A DNA stretch of 64,000 nucleotides. Origin: Hyphomicrobiales bacterium (GTDB lineage: Bacteria > Pseudomonadota > Alphaproteobacteria > Rhizobiales > Rhizobiaceae). The notes under the pieces were generated by a model. It worked only from the letters and a program-made list of their open reading frames with translations, had not been told where the DNA came from and did not search any database. Within the stretch, counting starts at the first letter, position 1. The number at the start of each line of letters is the position of its first letter. Positions 17,321-26,416 of the stretch are shown piece by piece. Made by a program: the position numbers and the translations under genes. The stretch covers positions 1 to 64,000 of the forward strand of contig UBXV01000006.1 in the NCBI GenBank assembly GCA_900469625.1, written 5' to 3'.

Positions 17321-17424
17321 TCAAATCATCAGAGGCGAACGACGGCAGACAGCCAAGCGGACGCCAGCGGCGATGGTTAGCCGCCCCGGATCCCGGGAAA
17401 GACCCGGACGAAAGTTCGATGGAA

Positions 17425-17549
17425 TTCGGAGCGGCGCACTCCTCCTCCCAGCGCCCCTCCGATACGATTGGCAACACTCCTCCTCCCAGTTGCCAATCAC
17501 TTTCAATGACGCTCGCTGGACCTCCTCCCCCAGCGGGCGTTATTCGTTT
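17425..17549 (+). ncRNA. Anti-Shine-Dalgarno sRNA, alpha-r14/cuckoo type, copy 1
   Basis: Three consecutive hairpins each present a CTCCTCC-containing loop able to pair with Shine-Dalgarno sequences. SL1 is GGCGC/GCGCC (17433-17455). SL2 is the perfect 9-bp ATTGGCAAC/GTTGCCAAT (17467-17497). SL3 is a 10-bp stem CGCTCGCTGG/CCAGCGGGCG (17510-17539) followed by TTATTCGTTT, the terminator. The architecture matches the trans-acting alpha-r14 family of Sinorhizobium (includes NfeR1) and the Rhodobacter CcsR 'cuckoo' RNAs, from memory. The 5' end is estimated. No sigma-70 promoter sits at the place equivalent to copy 2; the nearest is at 17292-17320. Confidence 0.82.
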
Positions 17550-17703: not shown

Positions 17704-17832
17704 CATCGATCGGGGCGGCGCACTCCTCCTCCCAGCGCCCCTCGATTTGGATCGGCAGCACTCCTCCTCCCAGTTGCCGATCAGAACAAAACGACGCTCG
17801 CTGGATCTCCTCCCCCAGCGGGCGTTGTTTGA
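17704..17832 (+). ncRNA. Anti-Shine-Dalgarno sRNA, alpha-r14/cuckoo type, copy 2
   Basis: A second copy of the same three-hairpin RNA, about 280 bp downstream of copy 1. SL1 spans 17717-17739. SL2 (17750-17782) has ATCGGCA/TGCCGAT arms; the stem bases differ from copy 1 but changed on both sides, so pairing is kept. SL3 is CGCTCGCTGG/CCAGCGGGCG (17795-17824) and is followed by TTGTTTGATT as terminator. Loops again carry CTCCTCC. The compensatory changes are strong internal evidence for a functional RNA. It has its own promoter at 17669-17697. Confidence 0.87.
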
Positions 17833-20516: not shown

Positions 20517-20984
20517 CTATTCGCTTGCTTGTGCCGGTGATGGCAGGTCGGCCCCATCGGTATTGAATTCCGATTTCGGGCTGAAGCTTCCCAGGAGCCA
20601 TAGCGAAACCTCGGCAGCCTCGCCCGCATTTTGAAACTCGAATGCATTGTCGAGATACGCGAAGTCCGGGAAATGCACGATCAGCCCACGTCCGCTTTCA
20701 GAGCTGTTGACGCGCACCTTGCCAGGTTGAATGACGTGGCAAACATGATGTGTGCCGTGTGACTGAATGAAACCGGCCTTGCCGTCGTGCAGCCTCAGGA
20801 AAATCGCCTTGCGGTCTGCCGTCGAATGCAGAGCACGAATCGCCTCATCGGGAAAGGCGCGCCCGAAGTCGACCATGGCCGAACCGGCATCGGGATTGTC
20901 CCAGTCGCGCTCGTTGCGCGCATTCATCCACATGTAGAACGCGCCAGCGAGAATGGCGATGATGATGAAAAGCAGCCAGAGCAT
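20517..20984 (-). CDS. Membrane-anchored protein of unknown function
   Basis: A 155-aa protein with one N-terminal transmembrane helix (about residues 1-20, MLWLLFIIIAILAGAFYMW) and a soluble domain containing IFLRLHDGKAGFIQSHG and GLIVHFPDFAYLDN. The gene ends in an acidic, proline-containing tail. I recognise no family and no catalytic motif. It stands alone, 114 bp from the phytoene-synthase-like gene on the same strand. GC and codon use look like the neighbours, so it is probably a real lineage-specific gene. Confidence 0.6.
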   Translation of the reverse strand: MLWLLFIIIAILAGAFYMWMNARNERDWDNPDAGSAMVDFGRAFPDEAIRALHSTADRKAIFLRLHDGKAGFIQSHGTHHVCHVIQPGKVRVNSSESGRGLIVHFPDFAYLDNAFEFQNAGEAAEVSLWLLGSFSPKSEFNTDGADLPSPAQASE

Positions 20985-21098: not shown

Positions 21099-21941
21099 CT
21101 AGAACCGCTTGCGCCTGTTCGCCCGCCACATCCACCATTGCCGCCGCCATTGCGCTGGTCTTATCGGCTTGCGCAACAGGTCTGCACCGACGGCGTCAGC
21201 GCGATCGAAGACGGGCTCGACCAGTGCCAGCGGAATGAACGCCGCAAAGTTATCGGCCGAAATCGTCGAGATTCGGGCGCGCGCCTTTGCCAGGTGGTCG
21301 CGGCCGTATCCGGTGAAGGCCCGTATCGCCCGCCCGATCGCTTCCAGATCCTGTCCGGCGAGAAGCGTCTCGCGGTCAAGCCCGGTTGCCCTGAGCAGCT
21401 CGGCCGGTAGATACACCTGCCCGCGTCGGCAGTGTTGCGGCAACAGCAACAACAGGCCGGCGACCGTCTGGGCGACGCCAGCGTGACCGGCGGCTTCCGC
21501 GGACGTTGCCGCGTTTTTCGGGTCGAGCACGAGCGAGGAAAGCTGAACGAGCGCCGATGCCGTTTCCCCGGCGTAACCTTCGAACGCCGCCCTGTCTTCC
21601 ATCGGGTCATCGTAGAGATCGAAGATTCTGGCGTCGATCATGTTCTGGAACACGGAGACCGGCAGGCGGTGCTTGCGAATGCACTCGAGCAAAGCGCGTG
21701 CGAGCGGGTGTCCCTCGCCGGTCGCCTCCTCGTTCTCCAACAGTTCCCGCCACCACTGCATGCGGATCTCGCCGGGAATCGGCTCATGCACCAGTTCGCG
21801 AATGCGGGCGAGTTCGGCGTTGAAGGCATAGAGCGCTGCGAGCGACGGCTGGCTTTCGACCGGCGCGAGCAGGCAGGCGAGGTAACGGTCACGATCCGTA
21901 TCCCTGAGGTCGGTCAGGATCTGGCTATCGGTGTCTTGCAC
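21099..21941 (-). CDS. Squalene/phytoene synthase-fold protein, NDUFAF6-like
   Basis: A 280-aa all-helical isoprenoid-synthase-fold protein. The first Asp-rich motif of true phytoene synthases is missing (FNAELARIRELV instead of a DDxxD context), so prenyl condensation is doubtful. Human NDUFAF6, a complex I assembly factor, belongs to the same family. The neighbouring gene encodes an NDUFAF3-type protein, which supports an assembly role over carotenoid synthesis; no crt genes are near. I chose GTG 21941 (AGGGA 8 nt upstream); a TTG at 21962 is the longest alternative. Confidence 0.8.
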   Translation of the reverse strand: MQDTDSQILTDLRDTDRDRYLACLLAPVESQPSLAALYAFNAELARIRELVHEPIPGEIRMQWWRELLENEEATGEGHPLARALLECIRKHRLPVSVFQNMIDARIFDLYDDPMEDRAAFEGYAGETASALVQLSSLVLDPKNAATSAEAAGHAGVAQTVAGLLLLLPQHCRRGQVYLPAELLRATGLDRETLLAGQDLEAIGRAIRAFTGYGRDHLAKARARISTISADNFAAFIPLALVEPVFDRADAVGADLLRKPIRPAQWRRQWWMWRANRRKRF

Positions 21942-21962
21942 GGACGTTTTCCCTGGCCGCAA

Positions 21963-22349
21963 TCAGACGGCAATCAGCGCGACGGCAACCGCGCGCGCTT
22001 CGGCCAGCATCACGTTGTAGGTTCTGACGGCAGCGCCGGTGCTCATCGGGTCGGACGAGATGTTGACTGCCCGCAAGGCGGTCTTCAGGTCTGCCGGCAG
22101 CGGGCGAATGTCGCGGCCGGTGCCAACCAGCAGCACTTCGATATCGCGCGCCTCATCCAGAACACGCTGGAATTTTTCCGGCAACAGCGGATCCCCTTCC
22201 GCCACGTCCCAGGCATAGACGCCCGAAGGCAGCATCAGGACGGAACCGCGGTGCGACATGTCGGCAAAACGGAAGCCGCCATTGCCATAGGCATCAATCG
22301 GGGCGCGCCCCGGAAAGTGCGCTTCGCGGATTTCGATACCCCTTGGCAT
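21963..22349 (-). CDS. Mth938-like domain protein (NDUFAF3 homologue)
   Basis: A 128-aa protein with the compact Mth938/DUF498 fold: GRAPIDAYGNGGFRF, a SVLMLPSGVYAWDV strand pair, LLVGTGRDIRPLP and TYNVMLAEARAVAVALI. Its mitochondrial relative NDUFAF3 helps assemble the Q-module of complex I, and conserved linkage of this family to secDF in alphaproteobacteria was noted when NDUFAF3 was described (from memory). Here it starts one base after the secDF stop, so the two are coupled. Start ATG 22349 matches the family; the longer ORF runs inside secDF. Confidence 0.88.
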   Translation of the reverse strand: MPRGIEIREAHFPGRAPIDAYGNGGFRFADMSHRGSVLMLPSGVYAWDVAEGDPLLPEKFQRVLDEARDIEVLLVGTGRDIRPLPADLKTALRAVNISSDPMSTGAAVRTYNVMLAEARAVAVALIAV

Positions 22350-22350
22350 T

Positions 22351-24921
22351 TCAGACAGAACCCTTTGCCGTTTGCGCCGTCCCGGCGCCCGGGCCGGAGA
22401 TGTGCTCGCCGCCCTGGAAATGGTCCGTCCGCTTGCGGAAGAGGATGAGGATCGGACCTGCGATGTAGATGGAAGAGATCGTGCCGACGACGACACCAAA
22501 CAAGAGCGTCACGCTGAAAGAGCGAATAAGACCACTACCGAAGAAGTAGAGCGCCGAAAGCGCCAGCACCGTCGTCAGCGCCGTCAGGATGGTGCGTGAC
22601 AGCGTCTGATTGATCGAAGCGTCAATCAGAACCGAAAGCGGCATCTTCTTGTAACGGCTGAGGTTCTCGCGGATGCGATCATAGATGACGACAGTGTCGT
22701 TGAGGGAGTAACCGATGATGGTCAGGAAAGCGGCGATGCTGCCGAGGTTGAACTCAATGCCGGTGATGACCAGGAAGCCGATCGTCAGCAGCACGTCATG
22801 CAGGGTCGCGATGATGGCTCCCACGGCAAAGCGCCACTCGAAGCGAAGCCAGACGTAGAGCAGGATTGCGGCAAAGGAGACGGCAAGGCCGATGGTGCCC
22901 GCGCGGGTCAGTTCGCCCGATACAACCGGGCCGACGACCTCGACGCGCTTGAAATCATATTCATCGCTCAGTTCGGCCCTGATGACGCCGACCGCGGTTT
23001 GCTCCGCGTTATCGCCGGCCTCCTGCGAGGGGACGCGCACCAGAACGCCTCTGCCGGACCCCAGATGCTGCACCTGCACCTCGCCAAGGTTCAGCTCGTC
23101 GAGGCGCACGCGCAGATCGGCGATATCGACGTTGCCTGCCCTGCTCTCGAGCTCGATGATCGACCCGCCCTTGAAATCGACCCCGAGATTGAGACCGAGG
23201 CTGGAGAGCAGGACGACGGAGGCGATCGATAGCGCCGCCATCACGATGAAGATCGGGTTGCGGATCGCCATGAAGCGGATGTCGAGATCGCTGAAGCGAC
23301 CGGTTCGAATGCCCTTCGGCAGATGCTGCGCCTTCCAGCCGCGAAGCCAGGCCTTGGCGATCCTGCGCGTCACCGTATAGGCGGTAAACAGCGTCGTGAC
23401 GCTGCCGATCGCGAGCGTGACGGCAAAGCCGCGCACGGAGCCGGAGCCGAGATAAAAGAGAATCGCACCTGCAATCAGCATCGTCAGATTGGCATCGAAG
23501 AGGCTGGTGAAGGCACGCGCAAACCCCTTGTTGACCGACTGGACCAGCGGTTGCCCCGTGCGCGCTTCCTCGCGGATGCGCTCGTAGATCAACACGTTGG
23601 AATCGACAGCAACGCCGATCGTCAGGATGATCGCGGCAATGCCCGGCAGTGTCAGCGTGGCACCGGTGAGCGACAGCGCGGCGATGATCAGAATGAGGTT
23701 CACGGCGAGCGCCGCAACGGCGAAGATGCCGAAGACGCCGTAGAAGAAGATCATGGATGCAGCGACGGCGACGGCGGCAATGAAGCCGGCCTTCAGGCCA
23801 TCACCGATCGCATCGTCGCCGACGCCAGGCCCGACGGTCCGCTCCTCGACCACAGTCAAAGTCGCCGGCAAAGGTCCGGTTCTGACGAGAGCGGCAAGAT
23901 CGCCAGCTCCTTCCTCCGGCAGATCGGCGGCAATGATCGCGGTATCACCCTTGATGGTGTCGCCCAGCGCCGCCGTTGCAACGACTTGATCGTCCAGAAC
24001 GATCGCCACCTTCTGGCCAGCACCTTTCGCCTGCAGTGCAGCCATACGCCCGGTCGCCGCCGGAGACAGTTTGATGGCAACCGAGGCCGCGCCGCCTTCT
24101 GCGGCCATCTGCGGCTGAGCGCCGATGAAATCTTCGCCCGACAGGAGCGGCGCCTTTTCGACCAAATAGGGGATCGGCGGATCGTCGAAGGAGTAAAGCA
24201 CTTCGTTGCCGGCCGGGGGCTGCGCATCGATGGCCTGCTGCACGGGAACGGCATCGTTCTGCAAATGGAATGAAACACGGGCGCGCTGGCTGAGCAGATC
24301 CTTCAGCCGCTGCGGATCAGCGAGACCGGGCACCTGAACGATCAACCGATCGTCGCCACGACGCTGGATCAACGGATCCGCCACTCCGACTTCCGCGATC
24401 CTGCGCTGAACGACACCGGCCGCCTGGCCCAAAGCCTGAGACAGGCGGTAGTCAATGCCTTCATCGCTCAGGCGAAGCCGGATCAGATCATCCTCTTCAG
24501 CACTGTCGAAGGCCAGTTCCGAAACTTCGTCGTTGACCAGTCCACCGGTTTCGACCGGCACCAGCAAGGGCGCGAGTGCTGCGCGCGCGGCGGGCAATTT
24601 CGCACGGTCGCGAACCCTGAGCGAAATCCGCTGGCCTTCGCCCGACAGGCCGATATAAGCGATGTCGGCATCGCGCAGGGCTTTGCCGACATCGTTTGTC
24701 ACGGTTTCAAGCCGTTCGGCGACGATATCGTCGCGCGCAGCCTGCAACATGAAGTGCGAACCACCCTGCAGGTCGAGACCCAGAGTGACCTGACGGTGCG
24801 GAAGCCAGGACGGCATCGCACCGGCCTGTTCCTTCGTCAGGAAATTCGGCATCGCAAACGCGACACCCAAAAGGACTGCCAGCCAAACAAGAGCGCTCTT
24901 CAACGGCTTCAGATTGGACAT
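22351..24921 (-). CDS. secDF: Fused protein-export membrane protein SecDF
   Basis: SecD and SecF pull pre-proteins across the inner membrane using the proton gradient, working with SecYEG and YajC. The 856-aa protein is a natural fusion: the SecD half (about 1-520) has an N-terminal helix, the large periplasmic P1 domain and five clustered helices; the SecF half (about 540-840) has a second periplasmic domain and helices. GVAVDSNVLIYERIREE and GYSLNDTVVIYDRIREN are the paired helix-4 motifs, with the conserved Asp in each. The start ATG 24921 has GGAG upstream. It follows yajC by 50 bp. Confidence 0.96.
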   Translation of the reverse strand: MSNLKPLKSALVWLAVLLGVAFAMPNFLTKEQAGAMPSWLPHRQVTLGLDLQGGSHFMLQAARDDIVAERLETVTNDVGKALRDADIAYIGLSGEGQRISLRVRDRAKLPAARAALAPLLVPVETGGLVNDEVSELAFDSAEEDDLIRLRLSDEGIDYRLSQALGQAAGVVQRRIAEVGVADPLIQRRGDDRLIVQVPGLADPQRLKDLLSQRARVSFHLQNDAVPVQQAIDAQPPAGNEVLYSFDDPPIPYLVEKAPLLSGEDFIGAQPQMAAEGGAASVAIKLSPAATGRMAALQAKGAGQKVAIVLDDQVVATAALGDTIKGDTAIIAADLPEEGAGDLAALVRTGPLPATLTVVEERTVGPGVGDDAIGDGLKAGFIAAVAVAASMIFFYGVFGIFAVAALAVNLILIIAALSLTGATLTLPGIAAIILTIGVAVDSNVLIYERIREEARTGQPLVQSVNKGFARAFTSLFDANLTMLIAGAILFYLGSGSVRGFAVTLAIGSVTTLFTAYTVTRRIAKAWLRGWKAQHLPKGIRTGRFSDLDIRFMAIRNPIFIVMAALSIASVVLLSSLGLNLGVDFKGGSIIELESRAGNVDIADLRVRLDELNLGEVQVQHLGSGRGVLVRVPSQEAGDNAEQTAVGVIRAELSDEYDFKRVEVVGPVVSGELTRAGTIGLAVSFAAILLYVWLRFEWRFAVGAIIATLHDVLLTIGFLVITGIEFNLGSIAAFLTIIGYSLNDTVVIYDRIRENLSRYKKMPLSVLIDASINQTLSRTILTALTTVLALSALYFFGSGLIRSFSVTLLFGVVVGTISSIYIAGPILILFRKRTDHFQGGEHISGPGAGTAQTAKGSV

Positions 24922-24971: not shown

Positions 24972-25307
24972 TTATTCCTTTACGGGTTCGCCCTTGACGC
25001 GAACCTCCGAAACGCCGGCGCGCGCGACGCGGATCTTGACGCCGTCAGCAATTTCCACTTCCAGCTCGCTGTCGTCGATGACCTTCGTCACCTTGCCGAG
25101 GATGCCGCCACCGATCACGACCTGATCGCTGCGACGGATGTTCTTCAGCAGCTCTTCGCGGCGCTTCATCTGCGCGCGCTGCGGGCGAATGATCAGGAAA
25201 TACATGACTACAAAGATCAGCAGGAAAGGCAGAATGGACATCAGGATGTCGGCGCCGCCGGTCGACGGCGCGCCAGCTGTCTGCGCAAAAGCTTCGGTAA
25301 TGAACAT
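24972..25307 (-). CDS. yajC: Preprotein translocase subunit YajC
   Basis: The small partner of SecDF. The 111-aa protein has one transmembrane helix (about residues 25-45, ending VVMYFLIIRPQ) and the conserved RPQRAQMKRREELL, with a beta-rich domain after it. The ribosome site AAGGAG lies 7 nt before the ATG. It is the first gene of the yajC-secDF-NDUFAF3-like-NDUFAF6-like run and is divergent from the DUF815 ATPase; the promoters must lie in 25308-25546. Confidence 0.95.
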   Translation of the reverse strand: MFITEAFAQTAGAPSTGGADILMSILPFLLIFVVMYFLIIRPQRAQMKRREELLKNIRRSDQVVIGGGILGKVTKVIDDSELEVEIADGVKIRVARAGVSEVRVKGEPVKE

Positions 25308-25546
25308 CGATCACTCCTTGAGTTCAAAATATGCGACGGTTTCTCCGCGCCAAATCGGCCGGAATATAAGGGCGCGCAGCCGCATTGCAAAGCGATGGCA
25401 CCCGTATCCGATGCAGTGCCTCTGACACAATTTCCGCAAGAGGAGAACCCCCTCTCCCGCCCGCTGCGGCCTTTTCCAGCGCAAACCTGCGTGCTACCCG
25501 GTTTAAGCAAAGCCAAGTGACTGATTCAGCAAGCGGAGATGGACCG

Positions 25547-26416
25547 ATGAGTGAAACCAGGATCGACGTTCTCATCAAGGAAATGCAGAAGCTTTCCGCA
25601 GCGCTCGAGCGCATCGCCGGCCCTGCTGCCGCTGCCAACGACTGGGATGCCGCCGAGTGTTTTGTCTGGGCGCCGGCCAGCCATCATCTGCAACCGGTCA
25701 AGCGACCGAACCGCATCGAATTGTCCCTCATCACCGGCGTCGATCACGTGCGCGACATCCTCGTCGACAACACGCTGCGCTTCGCGGAAGGTTACCCGGC
25801 AAACAATGTGCTGCTGTGGGGCGCGCGCGGCATGGGAAAATCCTCGCTGGTCAAGTCCGTCCATGCCCAGGTCGCCCGCGATACGGGCGTCGCAATCAAG
25901 CTCGTGGAAGTTCACCGCGAGGATATTGCCACCCTGCCGGCCTTGATGGAGATCCTGAAATCGGCGCCAACGCCGGTGATCGTCTTCTGCGACGATCTTT
26001 CCTTTGACCATGACGATACGTCGTACAAGTCATTGAAGGCTGTGCTCGATGGCGGGGTCGAGGGACGGCCGAGCAATGTCCTGCTCTATGCAACATCGAA
26101 CCGGCGCCACCTTCTGCCGCGCCATATGATGGAAAACGAACAGTCGACCGCCATCAACCCGTCGGAAGCGGTGGAAGAGAAGGTGTCGCTGTCGGATCGC
26201 TTCGGCCTGTGGCTCGGATTCCACAAGTGCAGCCAGGACGATTATCTGGCGATGATCGACGGCTATGCCGGTCACTATGGGCTGAAAGTCGACAAGGAGA
26301 CGCTGCACGCCGATGCGCTGGAATGGTCGACGACGCGGGGCGCAAGGTCCGGCCGCGTCGCCTGGCAATTCATTCAGGATCTGGCCGGTCGCCTGCGCCA
26401 CCGGCTGGAAGGCTGA
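25547..26416 (+). CDS. DUF815 AAA+-type ATPase
   Basis: A 289-aa ATPase with Walker A GARGMGKS at residues 92-99, Walker B VIVFCDDLSF, and a sensor-like region NVLLYATSNRRHL. A later motif LSDRFGLWLGF is typical of DUF815. The family is widespread and poorly characterised; the target is unknown. Start ATG 25547 has GGAG 8 nt upstream, while the frame stays open to 25385. Linkage to yajC-secDF is conserved in relatives as far as I recall, but a role in secretion is only inference. It converges on the nlpD-like gene with 23 bp between. Confidence 0.85.
   Translation: MSETRIDVLIKEMQKLSAALERIAGPAAAANDWDAAECFVWAPASHHLQPVKRPNRIELSLITGVDHVRDILVDNTLRFAEGYPANNVLLWGARGMGKSSLVKSVHAQVARDTGVAIKLVEVHREDIATLPALMEILKSAPTPVIVFCDDLSFDHDDTSYKSLKAVLDGGVEGRPSNVLLYATSNRRHLLPRHMMENEQSTAINPSEAVEEKVSLSDRFGLWLGFHKCSQDDYLAMIDGYAGHYGLKVDKETLHADALEWSTTRGARSGRVAWQFIQDLAGRLRHRLEG

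Follow-up and report, generated by a model that had tools for sequence, protein, structure and literature searches.

The human complex I assembly factor NDUFAF3 (C3ORF60) was reportedly tied, in the abstract of a 2009 paper by Saada et al., to a bacterial cluster of SecF, SecD and YajC and to C8ORF38 (NDUFAF6) (Am J Hum Genet 84:718); both the gene neighbourhood and its interpretation in terms of complex I are thus already known. Human NDUFAF3 belongs to the PF04430/Mth938 family. The same neighbourhood and interpretation are shared by a locus in a 64,000-nucleotide (nt) stretch of contig UBXV01000006.1 from a Hyphomicrobiales bacterium (the window, meaning the whole stretch analysed), where a gene for a DUF498/Mth938-fold protein and a gene for a squalene/phytoene synthase (SQS_PSY)-fold protein stand behind yajC and secDF. 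The pair probably represents bacterial counterparts of the factors that assemble complex I in mitochondria, comprising a pseudo-synthase and an Mth938 protein that would aid the assembly of complex I. A survey of the synthase motifs, an arrangement devoid of secDF and counts against the complex I subunit NuoD are added here to the link reported in 2009. No report of the SecF/SecD/YajC link or of a bacterial mutant test was identified in the literature searched, co-loss with native complex I not having been specifically sought there.

On the eukaryotic side, one study describes human NDUFAF6, Candida NDU1 and their orthologues as PF00494 proteins without DxxxD motifs, with human NDUFAF6 acting in ND1 biogenesis (PMC8007014). 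The loss of DxxxD within an SQS_PSY fold, by which NDUFAF6 is recognised in that text, was also found in the window protein. Correlated evolutionary rates of NDUFAF3, C8orf38 and C2orf56 are described in a second report, whose references include the 2009 paper (PMC3436739), and a table in a third source assigns NDUFAF3 to the Q module and NDUFAF6 to the PP module (PMC10910544).

Families and folds of the two proteins

The SQS_PSY protein scores 179 bits on PF00494 (cut-off 26), and an AlphaFold2 model of high confidence (predicted local distance difference test, pLDDT, 95.7) has revealed an all-helical fold with 33 PDB matches at E <= 0.001 in Foldseek, headed by the CrtM-like 8is8 (template modelling score, TM, 0.86 by query length, 14% identity). 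The fold is shared with the HpnD, HpnC and CrtM synthases, with TM by query length of 0.74 for HpnC (4hd1) and 0.77-0.86 for the CrtM type. Unlike these enzymes, the window protein has its catalytic acidic residues replaced, and it remains below the cut-offs of the NCBIfam synthase equivalogs, with 102 vs 278.6 bits for HpnD, 42 vs 250 for HpnC, and 27 vs 550 and 24 vs 500 for two CrtB models. As a control, the HpnD cut-off was passed by all four HpnD-type proteins tested from other genomes. No synthase equivalog cut-off was reached by three SQS_PSY-like members tested from the family of genome G273, which we guess to be Acetobacteraceae.

The replaced residues were located by comparing an alignment of 21 SQS_PSY proteins (A1), chosen for their gene linkage regardless of motif, with 20 HpnD-type proteins that had been selected by motif. 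All 20 of the latter carry D, D, D and E at positions 45, 46, 166 and 169, where A1 mostly has A, R, L/A and I/Q/L. Position 49, which closes motif 1, has kept an acidic residue in 18 of the 21 (D in 12, E in 6; E49 in the window protein), and position 108 is likewise acidic in most aligned members. Seven residues are invariant throughout A1 (E43, G57, E58, R60, W63, W64 and P79), with W64 common to HpnD-type proteins too and with E43, R60 and W63 constituting a signature of the SQS_PSY-like family. Synthase motifs were found in none of the 26 SQS_PSY open reading frames (ORFs) examined in linked loci (25 genomes, including that of the window) and, by pattern, in none of the 80 SQS_PSY proteins of the named loci described below. 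The original prediction, which had declared the Asp-rich motif missing, therefore holds for the first two Asp residues of motif 1 and for motif 2, whose acidic residues are gone, but not fully for the last position of motif 1. As for the carotenoid genes said to be missing from the vicinity, the window gene is the only PF00494 match in the 6.54-Mb genome, PF00494 being the family covered by the search and other carotenoid genes not having been searched for. A working phytoene or squalene synthase is rejected on account of the replaced motif residues and of scores far below the equivalog cut-offs; by its sequence the protein appears to be a pseudo-synthase, presumably devoid of enzyme activity.

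The DUF498 protein scores 100 bits on PF04430 (cut-off 33), and its model (pLDDT 92.5) is matched by 2fi9 with a TM of 0.88 by query length, an E-value of 1.8e-16 and 62% identity. Matches at E <= 0.001 comprise 2fi9, 2fvt, 3cpk, 2k2e, 2gm2, 2ab1 (two chains), 1ihn and 2cyj, so that family and fold are common to Mth938-fold proteins of Bartonella (2fi9), Rhodopseudomonas (2fvt), Xanthomonas (2gm2) and Bordetella (3cpk). The human chain among them is C11orf67 (2ab1). In the solved-structure matches listed from sequence and Foldseek searches, no NDUFAF3 chain is named for the DUF498 protein and no NDUFAF6 chain for the SQS_PSY protein. The structural comparison with these human factors that had been proposed at the outset has thus recovered the Mth938 and SQS_PSY folds, the human NDUFAF3 and NDUFAF6 chains themselves not being among the listed matches.

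Gene order in the window and among relatives

In the window, yajC, secDF, the DUF498 gene and the SQS_PSY gene follow one another in that order, all on the minus strand (Table 1). The secDF stop codon occupies 22353-22351 and, after a gap of 1 nt, the DUF498 gene begins with ATG at 22349; the SQS_PSY gene follows after 21 nt with GTG at 21941 as its start and TTG at 21962 as an alternative. Coordinates, spacing and the PF04430 and PF00494 families agree with the original prediction of an NDUFAF3-type gene one base past the secDF stop and a squalene/phytoene-synthase-fold gene 21 bp further on. Both genes are probably cotranscribed with yajC-secDF.

Among the genome of the window and its relatives, a DUF498 match was detected in 59/61 genomes and an SQS_PSY relative in 45 of the 49 searched for it, and the order yajC-secD/F-DUF498-SQS_PSY was observed in all 20 loci that had been chosen for containing both genes. 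The two genes are adjacent in 80/80 named loci, separated by a median of 49 nt; these are the best 80 of at least 553 loci and all belong to close relatives of the Rhizobiales type (Ensifer, Rhizobium, Mesorhizobium, Brucella and others). In more distant genomes of the class, 29 of the 30 top-scoring DUF498 loci from larger genomes also contain SecF/SecDF, as do all 11 DUF498 loci from the survey of small and weak-NuoD genomes. A chance neighbourhood is ruled out by the adjacency in the named loci together with the 29/30 distant loci. Outside the Rhizobiales the pair is often separated. Both genes were matched in 67 genomes, in some of them with a synthase-like SQS_PSY match, and the SQS_PSY match lies downstream on the same strand and no more than 12 kb away in 54 of these, and within 300 nt in only eight.

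Six of the 80 named loci (L100, L103, L106, L118, L124 and L129) carry yajC, DUF498 and SQS_PSY in succession, with secDF absent from the locus by tblastn. In none of 30 loci from the family of G273, examined with flanks of up to 1.5 kb, did the surroundings of the SQS_PSY-like gene give a SecDF match; yajC was matched in 17 of them. The link to SecDF is weak, given the six loci in which yajC and the pair occur without secDF; it is one of gene order only, which some lineages have dropped, and the membership of SecDF in the module, as originally proposed, is not supported. These data also bear on the possibility that the two proteins work with YajC-SecDF in membrane-protein insertion at large or in envelope biogenesis, with complex I entering the picture as a large membrane-protein client. 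Such a role would account for the constant place behind yajC/secDF in the 20/20, 29/30 and 11/11 loci, but it is considered unlikely in view of the six loci and the family of G273 just described, and of the absence of both genes from 22 genomes without NuoD (see below), where SecDF would be expected.

Various other elements have been observed around these genes. In other bacterial orders a membrane protein recurs, on either strand, between secF/DUF498 and the SQS_PSY-like gene; the two tested match Urate_ox_N (L319:2459-3058 and L045:2023-2664), and similar proteins were recognised by eye in L006, L277, L279, L284, L301 and L323. A superoxide dismutase-like ORF was seen by eye in the same gap in L146, L148 and L286. 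The ORF that follows the pair in the window was matched by neither Pfam nor NCBIfam at E <= 0.001; its family-less product adjoins the pair in 55 of the 80 named Rhizobiales loci and is another candidate member of the block. Divergently from yajC, a DUF815 AAA ATPase gene lies on the plus strand at 25385-26416 (PF05673, 1e-105). Two copies of ar14, an alphaproteobacterial small RNA (RF02344), occur on the plus strand at 17421-17545 and 17705-17830, with 119.8 and 104.2 bits; they are about 284 nt apart and their repeat blocks are 88-90% alike.

Table 1. Features of the yajC-secDF locus, in window coordinates (aa, amino acids)
Feature	Coordinates	Strand	Evidence
yajC, upstream of secDF	24972..25307	-	PF02699 1.5e-25 and TIGR00739, both over cut-off
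secDF, fused protein translocase subunit SecDF, 856 aa	22351..24921	-	NF011315 1272 bits vs cut-off 1249
DUF498/Mth938-fold protein, NDUFAF3-like, 128 aa	21963..22349	-	PF04430 8e-29; PDB 2fi9 1.2e-45; model; Foldseek
SQS_PSY-fold protein without synthase motifs, NDUFAF6-like, 280 aa	21099..21941	-	PF00494 1.4e-52; model; Foldseek
Hypothetical protein, next ORF after the pair	20517..20984	-	N-terminus hydrophobic by eye

Distribution against complex I

A survey of the class covered 289 genomes at least 90% complete, of which 22 had no NuoD match, two of these (G297 and G308) having been identified by elimination and then searched. For comparison, sets of 45 small and 80 larger genomes with NuoD and of 13 genomes with weak NuoD matches, which we take to be hydrogenase-like, were selected by size, family and E-value; the 13 are a part of the weak set, as 15 matched genomes fall below the NuoD cut-off. 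DUF498 was detected in 0/22 genomes without NuoD, 1/13 with weak NuoD, 10/45 small and 68/80 larger NuoD-bearing genomes. SQS_PSY-like proteins without synthase motifs were found in 0/22, 3/13 and 9/45 of the first three sets, the SQS_PSY matches of G204, G285 and G273 being synthases with motifs. In the larger set, an A1 match was present in 78/80 genomes and an SQS_PSY-like protein in about 74, four matches (G098, G120, G156 and G167) looking synthase-like by match position; the first-look scoring used for these 80 genomes, as for the first search in the family of G273, covered at most 28-32 candidates per genome, with misses possible. Motif 1 was kept in none of the 30 best matches of this set. 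At least one factor was present in 14/45 small NuoD-bearing genomes vs 0/22 NuoD-less ones (Fisher p 0.0017, one-sided and without correction for kinship). This distribution suggests a leaning of the pair to complex I, in a codistribution that is not fully corrected for kinship.

The family of G273 comprises 90 genomes, of which 79 have NuoD over the cut-off. A fused NuoCD is the only NuoD over the cut-off in ten of these, all of which pass NF008728 (900-1169 bits vs cut-off 840), a threshold reached by none of three native NuoD controls (394-407 bits). The remaining 69 were classed as native, 66 of them by score and frame alone; a long open frame is no mark of NuoCD by itself, having been found in two native genes too. 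Six genomes were counted as NuoD-less, one with no match (G273) and five with very weak ones (G378, G396, G402, G409 and G435; E 4e-12 to 6e-20), and NuoD status is unclear in five (G350, G363, G365, G372 and G420). In addition, native and NuoCD-like matches appear to coexist, by score and frame length, in G385, G401, G412, G422 and G430, all of which retain the SQS_PSY-like gene.

An SQS_PSY-like gene was detected by A1 in 64/69 native genomes and in 66/69 after a family-specific profile had scored all candidates, which added G410 and G432 (both without motif 1) as well as a broken remnant with stop codons in G414 (G414:C1:289821-290130), a genome with NuoD over the cut-off. The gene was found in 1/10 genomes with fused NuoCD only (G369), in 0/6 with no or very weak NuoD and in 4/5 of unclear status. 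The motif pattern had labelled a short HpnC piece in G409 as SQS_PSY-like and the G430 protein as synthase-like, and both labels were corrected by eye. In G375 the sole match is a 580-aa ORF that fuses an HpnC-like to an HpnD-like half, each with synthase motifs (L342, G375:C1:1879900-1882600). Eight of the nine NuoCD-only genomes without the gene measure 2.2-3.7 Mb and are not strongly reduced. It is possible that the SQS_PSY-like protein is an assembly factor dedicated to the native, mitochondrial-type alphaproteobacterial complex I, is unneeded by the fused-NuoCD (E. coli-type) enzyme and is lost where the native one has gone or only the fused kind is left, as in one branch of the family.

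Several observations weigh against a strict tie of the pair to complex I or to its native form. Within the class, the 22 NuoD-less genomes are small (0.8-2.0 Mb), making general gene loss a confounder, and neither factor is present in 31/45 small NuoD-bearing genomes. The SQS_PSY-like gene is retained in the weak-NuoD genomes G121, G249 and G253, together with DUF498 in G249, and the NuoD match of G253 (1.8e-19) is as weak as in the five genomes of the family of G273 counted as NuoD-less. In that family, G373 and G403 have native NuoD and no SQS_PSY-like gene, G369 retains the gene with only a fused NuoCD, and the draft assemblies G372 and G420 retain it with only weak NuoD relatives. DUF498 exceeds the cut-off in only 2/90 genomes of the family although 79 have NuoD, one remnant being found besides. 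The need for both factors, as first proposed, is accordingly not supported, and DUF498 is probably not strictly required, because an intact copy is absent from 88 of the 90 genomes of this mostly NuoD-bearing family.

Kinship weighs in the same direction. A tree of 49 HpnD proteins, from which G375 was left out, gathers the eight NuoCD-only genomes without the gene, the six without NuoD and the native G376 in a 15-row branch, so that the family pattern is that of one branch, with 2 independent pairs and a sign test p of 1. The earlier-stage count of 64/69 vs 1/16, made before G410 and G432 were added, gives a two-sided Fisher p of about 1e-11, a value given no weight as proof when only these two pairs are left by the tree. 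Gene loss that tracks NuoD in this family is therefore suggestive and corresponds to one or two independent events.

Two further explanations must be considered in the light of these counts. The SQS_PSY protein may still be an enzyme or a ligand binder for an isoprenoid or another lipid, for instance one related to ubiquinone, with its presence following respiration in general. The fold kept at high model confidence, the acidic residues at positions 49 and 108 in most aligned members and the prenyl transferases among the solved relatives are in keeping with this idea, which is nonetheless held to be improbable, considering that the diagnostic acidic residues are replaced, that no synthase equivalog cut-off is reached by the window protein or by the three members from the family of G273, and that the gene is absent from 9/10 NuoCD-only genomes, which presumably still respire with quinones. 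Least probable is a frozen gene order with a distribution shaped by genome reduction and shared ancestry, the two proteins having unrelated bacterial roles and being recruited to complex I in mitochondria, which would fit the small NuoD-less genomes, the one or two loss events and the retention in some weak-NuoD genomes, but not the 14/45 vs 0/22 among size-matched genomes or the size of the eight NuoCD-only genomes.

A putative role in complex I assembly

The reading preferred here, of the pair as bacterial counterparts of the mitochondrial assembly factors, would begin with a pseudo-enzyme in which the prenyl-synthase fold was kept while the residues of the Asp-rich motifs were replaced and a family signature was gained. 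The SQS_PSY protein may chaperone an early intermediate of complex I at the membrane surface, most likely at the NuoH/ND1 stage, and the DUF498 protein may aid the adjoining Q module in the manner of NDUFAF3, as an accessory that lineages can lose. Both proteins would be expected to contact complex I subunits, and the step of action is placed here because human NDUFAF6 acts in ND1 biogenesis and NDUFAF3 on the Q module. The ancient alphaproteobacterial module for respiratory assembly envisaged in the original prediction is thus partly supported, by the families, the folds, the lost synthase motifs, the neighbourhood deeply conserved in Alphaproteobacteria and a distribution leaning to complex I, but not as regards the membership of SecDF or the need for both factors.

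If the pair does assemble bacterial complex I, two human disease proteins of unclear molecular role would become open to simple genetics, and the pseudo-synthase would exemplify an enzyme fold that became a chaperone ahead of the origin of mitochondria. The co-loss with the native enzyme type constitutes a new lead that gives a direct test; were it to hold, the assembly of bacterial complex I would depend on the type of the enzyme, and the family of G273 would amount to a natural swap experiment.

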